Shown here: positions 28,875-45,332 of the stretch, in pieces | How the letters are laid out: each line of letters opens with the position of its first letter | Position numbering within the stretch: position 1 is the first letter of the stretch | NCBI GenBank assembly: GCA_009841435.1 | Contig: VXLW01000057.1 | Span: 1-51,111 of the forward strand | DNA from: Dehalococcoidia bacterium | Lineage (GTDB): Bacteria > Chloroflexota > Dehalococcoidia > Tepidiformales > Tepidiformaceae | Direction: 5' to 3' | DNA length: 51,111 nucleotides | Position numbers and translations under genes: made by a program | Notes under the pieces: model-generated | What the model was told of the DNA's origin: nothing | The model's database searches: none | The model's input: the letters and a program-made list of their open reading frames with translations, nothing else

Positions 28875-28954
28875 CTGCGGCAGGATACGCGAAGGCGCGG
28901 AACCGGTCGGCTGGAGCGTGCGCTGCAGCCCAGGGGAGCGCGAAGGAGCAGGCT

Positions 28955-29560
28955 ATGCCGAGAGTCAGCGAAGTCGGCGGCATGGAGGGGTTTGGCGGCG
29001 TCTACGGGCACCGCCCCGACCTCTTCAAGGGGTTCATGTTCAACTACGGCGTGCTGTGGTCCCACAGCACCCTCGATCCCCTCCTGAAGGAGCTCATCAG
29101 GCTCTATTCGTCCAACACCAACGGATGCCGATACTGAATCCCCGCACGTACTGCTGCGGCGCAGCAGGAAGGCATGACGGAAGAGATGATCCAGCAGGCG
29201 CTGGACTTCCGGAATTCGGACCTCCCGGACCGTATCAAGATCGCGCTTGAGCTGGCCGAGGACTTCATCCTCAACCACGCGAACAACGTCGATGACGCGT
29301 TCATGGACCGGCTCAAGGAGTACTACACCGAGGACCAGATCGTCGAGATCACGATCGGCATCGGGATCTGGGACTCCGTGCACAAGTTCAACAACGTGTT
29401 CGACGTTCCGCCGCCCGTGGAGGACGGCCTGTTCATCCTCGAGCGTCTGGCCGACGCCCCCGAGGACATGCAGCACCTCATCACGCACCTCGACGGGAAC
29501 GGCAATCCCATGGATCGCTGGGAGCCGGCCGAGGCGGAAGCCGCGGGAGGCGCCTCCTAG
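28955..29560 (+). CDS. AhpD-like/carboxymuconolactone decarboxylase selenoprotein (C-R-Y-U)
   Basis: 201 residues if the in-frame TGA at 29135-29137 is read as selenocysteine (U61). AhpD-like proteins are peroxidatic thiol proteins with a C-x-x-C site. Here the sequence runs LLKELIRLYSSNTNGCRY, TGA, IPARTAAAQQEGMTEEMI, so C58 is kept and U replaces the second Cys, while family sequence continues in the same frame on both sides. A SECIS-like hairpin follows at 29151-29167. ATG 28955 has AAGGAG six bases upstream. Standard gene calling yields two fragments (28955-29137 and 29174-29560). Other genes here end in TGA, so TGA is not a general sense codon. The alternative is a pseudogene from one TGC/TGT to TGA change. 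Confidence 0.85.
29151..29167 (+). promoter_or_regulatory. Bacterial SECIS hairpin of the AhpD-like gene
   Basis: CTGCTGC, loop GGC, GCAGCAG: a perfect seven-pair stem starting 13 bases after the TGA, with G in the first two loop positions. The loop begins 20 bases after the TGA (19 if the closing pair opens), matching the other two SECIS candidates here. Confidence 0.78.
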
Positions 29561-29589
29561 GCGCTTCCCACCACGACGTTGAGAATGCC

Positions 29590-29623
29590 GGGGCGCGCGG
29601 CTCTATCGCCGTGCGCCCCGTTT
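29590..29623 (+). terminator. Terminator hairpin after the AhpD-like gene
   Basis: GGGGCGCGCGGC (29590-29601) and GCCGTGCGCCCC (29608-29619) form a 12-pair stem with one G-T pair and loop TCTATC, followed by GTTT. It lies 30 bases after the selenoprotein stop. The stop codon of the small minus-strand gene is inside its loop. Confidence 0.6.
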
Positions 29624-44813: not shown

Positions 44814-45332
44814 ATGACCACGATTCTCGATCCCACGGACGAGCGCGTCCCGGTACGGCGCTCGCTCACGAAGCGGCCGGAGGCGATCAGCGGCACGGTC
44901 GCGCTGCTGGATATCTCGAAGCCCCGGGGCGATGTCCTGCTCAACCAGCTCGAGGTGCGCCTGCGCGAGCGGCTCCCCGAGGTGGACGTGCTGCGCTACA
45001 GCAAGCCCACCTTCACGAAACCGGCCCCGGAAGCGCTGAAGCAGGAGCTGGCGAAGGAGGCCGACTTCGTCGTCGAAGGGTTAGCGGACTGAGGGTCGTG
45101 TACCACGTGCAGTGTGCACGACACGACCTGGCTGGAAATCAACGGAATCCCCTCGGTCTTCATCGCGTCGGACGAGTTCGAGGAGGCGGCGGAGGCGCAG
45201 GCTGAGTCGCTGGGGCTACCGGAAGTGCGGCGGCTCTTCGTGCCGCATCCGATCCAGGACGCGAACGACGACGAGATGCGCGAGAAGGCGGACGCGATCG
45301 TCGAGGACGTGATCGCGGCGCTGATCGACTAG
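44814..45332 (+). CDS. UGSC-family selenoprotein
   Basis: 172 residues if the TGA at 45090-45092 is selenocysteine (U93). The sequence runs DFVVEGLAD-U-GSCTTCSVHDTTWLEINGIPSVFIAS, giving the motif U-G-S-C that names the UGSC family of (seleno)proteins; many relatives carry Cys at this place. A second pair C96/C99 follows. The N-terminal half has VALLDISKPRGDVLLNQLEVRL and the C-terminal half VRRLFVPHPIQDANDDEMREKADAI. A textbook SECIS hairpin lies at 45094-45128. Ordinary calling gives two fragments in the same frame (44814-45092 and 45114-45332). The molecular function of the family is not established; the motif suggests redox chemistry. Divergent from selW. Confidence 0.94.
45094..45128 (+). 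promoter_or_regulatory. Bacterial SECIS hairpin of the UGSC gene
   Basis: The lower stem is GGTCGTGT (45094-45101) with ACACGACC (45121-45128), eight perfect pairs. A left bulge ACCA follows, then the upper stem CGTGC (45106-45110) with GCACG (45116-45120). The apical loop AGTGT has G at position 2 and starts 18 bases after the TGA. Confidence 0.9.

Follow-up and report, generated by a model that had tools for sequence, protein, structure and literature searches.

The gene at positions 28955 to 29560 of the window, that is, of the whole stretch of 51,111 nucleotides that was analysed, can be taken with a probability of about 95%, as judged from sequence, to be a functional selenoprotein gene in which the TGA at codon 61 is read as selenocysteine (Sec). 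It starts with the ATG at 28955 and ends with the TAG at 29558-29560, and codon 61 is the single in-frame TGA between them. An earlier note on this DNA had described two fragments in one frame joined by a single TGA, and NTNGCRY-TGA-IPARTAAAQQEGMTEE is indeed present in the sequence. On one side of the gene lies a divergent gene for an SDR dehydrogenase and on the other a convergent gene for a PhoR/PnpS-like histidine kinase, and the gene looks monocistronic. Its features are:

28955..29560, + strand: putative AhpD/CMD-type selenoprotein gene, 201 codons including U61, stop codon TAG
28943..28948, + strand: Shine-Dalgarno-like AAGGAG, 6 nt 5' of the ATG, read directly from the sequence
29126..29137, + strand: codons TGC CGA TAC TGA of the C58-R-Y-U61 redox motif, aligned with the C-x-x-C of solved AhpD-like proteins
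29135..29137, + strand: TGA, predicted selenocysteine codon, TGA in 28 of 28 relatives and TGC in the nearest Cys relative
29151..29167, + strand: bacterial SECIS-like hairpin CTGCTGC-GGC-GCAGCAG, from pairing and covariation in 31 distinct sequences

When genome contigs were scanned for relatives of the gene, 30 related loci were obtained, of which 28 reach the TGA column and two stop short. All 28 carry TGA at this column, at identities from 98.5% down to 56%. By record title they belong to two phyla, some being named as Dehalococcoidia, Chloroflexi or Tepidiformaceae and others as Gammaproteobacteria or groups thereof. A match was found in 46 of 60 genomes (that of the window and 59 relatives), and in the genomes of the same genus the best match had TGA in 8/8, which overlap with the 28 loci and are no separate count. 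The nearest Cys relative (locus L061 in genome G012, 49% identity) has TGC at the TGA column, and in a tree it pairs with a Sec row with a support of 89/82, less than the tool counts as firm. Thus, the comparison of homologues that the earlier note had proposed gave the TGA or Cys codon at this column that is expected of a bacterial selenoprotein. The source assembly is a draft in 127 contigs, and a pseudogene or a sequencing error, in which the TGA would be a true stop or a misread TGC or TGT, might be thought of; however, the same TGA occurs in 28/28 relatives from different records, the hairpin described below covaries, and the ratio dN/dS after the TGA is not above 0.162 in six comparisons, so that this explanation is hardly credible. 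In these comparisons of the window gene with six relatives dN/dS was 0.025-0.128 before the TGA and 0-0.162 after it; a seventh comparison was saturated. Equally hard to credit is that there are two separate proteins, the first ending at the TGA and the second starting at the ATG at 29174. The downstream open reading frame, 29174-29560, does have this ATG of its own, but the CMD domain match (protein residues 23-86) crosses the TGA, the residues P63, R65 and A69, which lie between the TGA and this ATG, do not vary among 22 aligned sequences, and the Cys relatives continue without a stop. In a tree of 34 rows a branch supported at 100/98 divides the labelled groups, Chloroflexota and Gammaproteobacteria, from each other. 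The direction of a transfer between the two was considered and dropped, because the root of this tree is untested, 11 of the 34 rows are without a group label and four rows are flagged as long branches.

A bacterial SECIS is a hairpin at a set distance just after the TGA with a G in its apical loop. The perfect hairpin that the earlier note had claimed to start 13 nt 3' of the TGA was found at 29151-29167, with the arms CTGCTGC (29151-29157) and GCAGCAG (29161-29167) and the loop GGC (29158-29160), whose first G is 21 nt after the TGA; position and loop are therefore those of a SECIS-like hairpin. In 32 chosen sequences, 31 of them distinct, that were aligned in one hairpin register, all three columns of the GGC loop are invariant, and across the 31 distinct sequences 217 of 217 cells (100%) are paired. 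Four of the seven pairs are altered on both sides, the double changes being G-C to U-A (seven times), G-C to U-G (four times), U-A to C-G (three times), C-G to U-A (once) and C-G to A-U (once). None of 500 shuffles matched the paired percentage, the covariation score or either count of double changes (there are two), and the fifth covariation measure, further pair types, was matched by 111 of 500. When the hairpin register was slid as a control, only 12.9-70.0% of the cells were paired. Among 20,000 synonymous recodings, five had a perfect stem of at least 7 bp at the SECIS distance. The folding energy was tried as proof of a SECIS and dropped, as it is unremarkable against both recodings, of which 1570 of 5000 fold as well, and shuffles (z = -0.60, 53/200 as good), and comparable stems are frequent in this window of 70% G+C (854 of 51,069 stretches). 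The hairpin counts as evidence because it is conserved and covarying, and the SECIS search that the earlier note had suggested was answered by its retention and covariation in relatives. A search of Rfam with 28900-29600 found nothing at E values up to 1, which says little because, to our knowledge, Rfam holds no general bacterial SECIS family. An equivalent hairpin was looked for in the Cys relative of G012 and is absent there. Other paralogue clades have their own hairpins at a similar distance, some of them weak, the one of the paralogue type named C13 having a folding energy of just -7.5 to -12.5 kcal/mol.

The genes selA, selB, selC and selD, which according to the earlier note should be looked for in the same genome, are all present and above cut-off (SelA 478.8 bits, SelB 296.9, tRNA-Sec 71.1 and SelD 344), so that SelA, SelB, SelD and tRNA-Sec are found together as expected for a bacterial selenoprotein; SelA is split across contig ends. 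SelB and Sec-tRNA-Sec would read the UGA at codon 61 as Sec, and the hairpin, with its loop beginning 21 nt after the UGA, would guide this insertion. SelA was above cut-off in 19/19 gammaproteobacterial carrier genomes. By a hand count, 24 of 26 genomes whose match carries the TGA had SelB above cut-off, compared with 10 of 20 that had TGA-less matches and 9 of 14 in which nothing matched. The two genomes in which no SelB above cut-off was found despite a TGA-bearing match, G011 and G022, are 86% and 85% complete. The four genomes in which the C13-type paralogue occurs as a Cys form (G020, G028, G032 and G034) likewise had no SelB above cut-off. It could be argued that the TGA is read as another residue through a changed code or plain readthrough, without selenium, since reading it as Cys or Trp also yields the whole protein. 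This is very improbable given the Sec machinery in the genome, the covariation of the SECIS-like hairpin and the outcome of scanning the window with a codon model whose training set included the gene at 28955-29560 itself: only three internal TGA sites scored as coding on both sides, namely 29135-29137, the TGA of the UGSC-family gene described at the end and one antisense to a histidine kinase gene. What can be read from the sequence is the gene with its TGA column, the covariation of the hairpin, the Sec machinery and the family of the fold; column, hairpin and machinery support what the earlier note had proposed, that U61 is selenocysteine, and from them we infer that Sec is inserted in the cell. 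The SelD gene of this genome (G000:C15:29324-30259, L079) has one in-frame TGA, and its product is probably itself a selenoprotein.

By curated domain scores the window protein belongs to the AhpD-like/CMD superfamily, with 44 bits against a cut-off of 23 for PF02627 (CMD) and 38.5 bits against 27.8 for TIGR00778 (AhpD core domain), and none of the NCBIfam equivalogs reaches its cut-off for this protein. The best family match, over residues 16-152, is to NF053654, YciW-related (seleno)protein, yet its 63.2 bits fall below the cut-off of 310, which places the protein outside this equivalog. All 22 aligned members match NF053654 at E <= 0.001, the best E-value among them being just slightly better than that of the window protein. 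An AlphaFold model of fair quality (mean pLDDT 71.4) gave AhpD-like structures first in a fold search, with Pseudomonas aeruginosa AhpD-like entries at ranks 1-3, of which PA0269 (2ijc and 2o4d) holds ranks 2 and 3 at 22% identity in the fold alignment. A sequence-profile search of solved structures gave Atu0492 first and then PA0269. AhpD of Mycobacterium tuberculosis has the same fold but is a weaker match, with E of 0.1 or more. The alignment with solved AhpD-like proteins bears out the earlier placing of the TGA at the second Cys of C-x-x-C: Sec61 stands in the place of Cys133 in mycobacterial AhpD and Cys51 in PA0269, both of which are Cys forms, and PA0269, as far as its available description goes, shares the C-x-x-C position and has, like the window protein, a Tyr before the second Cys. 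The available text on PA0269 gives a proton relay of Glu36, Cys48, Tyr50, Cys51 and His55, terms both Cys and the His invariant and calls peroxide reduction weak (PMC3141380). The equivalents of the relay in the window protein are Glu/Asp46, Cys58, Tyr60, Sec61 and Arg65, so of the three residues termed invariant only Cys58 is kept, Cys51 being replaced by Sec61 and His55, which is His137 in M. tuberculosis AhpD, by Arg65.

Arg65 is invariant in the 22 aligned sequences. The change from His to Arg was considered as a mark of Sec and given up: where AhpD has its His, 40 of 45 distinct Sec rows show Arg, but 5 of 8 Cys rows do so too. Because of these five Cys rows, Arg65 reads in the alignment as a trait of the clade and not of Sec as such. 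The product would be an all-helical AhpD/CMD-type protein in which Cys58-Arg-Tyr-Sec61 replaces the C-x-x-C of AhpD. Its selenolate would attack peroxide or another oxidised substrate, Cys58 would resolve the oxidised Sec by forming a selenenyl-sulfide with it, and the Cys58/Sec61 pair would then be reset by a thiol reductant of the cell. Such selenol/thiol oxidoreductase chemistry is probable. Peroxide may be the natural substrate, a weaker and evenly balanced proposal, and the protein is perhaps a peroxidase; this activity, which the earlier note had proposed in calling the protein peroxidatic, is not assured because the catalytic His kept by AhpD-like proteins is Arg here. The debrominase Bmp8 (6ohi) is a distant match (35.6 bits for the AhpD-like sequence match, fold rank 16), and a debromination like that of Bmp8 is speculation.

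This genome (G000, a 2.7 Mb draft) has five genes of CMD/AhpD type that share a TGA at the C-x-x-U column, namely the window gene and those on contigs C76, C13, C119 and C55 (L082, L083, L084 and L085); Pfam CMD has eight matches above cut-off in it, five of them with TGA. Among 72 distinct aligned rows of CMD/AhpD paralogues the column is TGA in 52, TGC in eight, an acidic or Gly codon in nine and a gap in three, and there is no in-frame TGA elsewhere in the matched stretch in any of the 72. In L083 (953-1990, - strand), L085, L090, L095, L096 and L097 the paralogue adjoins a CMD paralogue without the second motif Cys or Sec, which is perhaps a partner subunit.

When gene neighbourhoods were examined as a guide to function they were mostly unlike between lineages and were dropped for this purpose, with one lead left, the Rieske oxygenases at these loci:

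L028, 272-1723 with 1768-2307: Rieske ring-hydroxylating oxygenase adjoining selenoprotein gene
L041, L043, L044 and L045; L083 below 882; L125, L130 and L136: Rieske ring-hydroxylating oxygenase beside AhpD-type selenoprotein genes

They raise the possibility that the protein is a real selenoprotein and not a peroxidase, acting as an oxidoreductase partner of Rieske oxygenases or in another catabolic step. An oxygenase is found in the fetched flank of 10 of 19 gammaproteobacterial loci reaching the TGA column (11 of 21 when two partial loci are included), and in L028 it is encoded on the same strand, its end lying 44 nt upstream. Seven genomes, 29.6 Mb in total, hold 181 matches to the Rieske domain, from which hand arithmetic puts chance at about 5% per locus. 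An oxygenase also lies beside the C13-type paralogue in G000, G003, G004 and G016 (four of five flanks fetched) and near its Cys form in 4/4 genomes, and the replacement of His by Arg in the window family fits such a role. However, these 10 loci represent about four arrangements and hence are few independent cases, no oxygenase is seen at any of 10 close loci from Chloroflexota (the 51-kb window and nine others), the C13-type flank of G010 is without one, and other neighbours vary beyond close lineages. A role beside Rieske oxygenases or in another catabolic step is therefore unlikely, though not negligibly so, and the Rieske neighbourhood is a lead and not a result. In the C119 type a Rieske oxygenase occurs, more distantly, in the wider flanks of G003 and G004. 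It is more doubtful still that the CxxU family with this Arg is, in marine bacteria, no antioxidant enzyme but an accessory, dependent on selenium, to Rieske-type oxygenases and related catabolism, with Arg for His and Sec for the second Cys marking a changed chemistry. If this were true, the chemistry could, for example, remove peroxide or an oxidised or halogenated intermediate that arises beside the oxygenase, and the accessory family would span Chloroflexota and Gammaproteobacteria, with five paralogues in one genome.

The earlier note had held that a selenium-dependent form with U in the second position is little described, and this is contradicted by the literature. AhpD-like selenoproteins with CxxU have been in print since 2005, when 27 AhpD-like and four CMD selenoprotein sequences were given for the Sargasso Sea (PMC1088965); AhpD-like 1 and 2 followed from GOS in 2008 with 299 and 70 sequences (PMC2398784), and the family tables of 2022 and 2026 list them (PMC9312934, PMC13188914), that of 2026 ranking the distant AhpD homologue among the high-confidence predicted families (PMC13188914). 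In the available text of these four accounts the function is predicted, not measured. As described there, the selenoproteins of 2005 and 2008 are, like the window gene, of the CMD/AhpD family, with Cys-x-x-Sec and a hairpin after the TGA, and from marine microbes; the comparison is by description, and the window subfamily may or may not be among the 27, 299 and 70 sequences. Searches of the literature gave, among the matches listed, no title on an experimental study of a CxxU AhpD-like selenoprotein and none on an AhpD-type selenoprotein among work on Sec in SAR202, sponge Chloroflexi or Dehalococcoidia. The find is thus a well-supported member of the CxxU AhpD-like selenoproteins, a type predicted since 2005. 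Its less ordinary parts are the five paralogues, the Arg65 trait, the Rieske neighbours and that no NCBIfam equivalog is reached; because of the last, automatic gene calling may split the protein at the TGA. Arg for His together with the Rieske neighbours poses a concrete question, namely what AhpD-like selenoproteins do.

In this Sec-using Chloroflexota lineage there are five selenoprotein genes of AhpD type, a SelD gene holding an in-frame TGA and at least one further selenoprotein gene, which lies in the same window:

44814-45332, + strand: second selenoprotein gene, UGSC family, TGA at 45090-45092

UGSC-containing selenoproteins are already known from the available text of the 2008 study (PMC2398784). 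The gene scores 167.5 bits against a cut-off of 125 for NF041046 and 165.7 against 25 for PF24696, and a strong hairpin follows its TGA (z -2.35, 6/200 shuffles as good).
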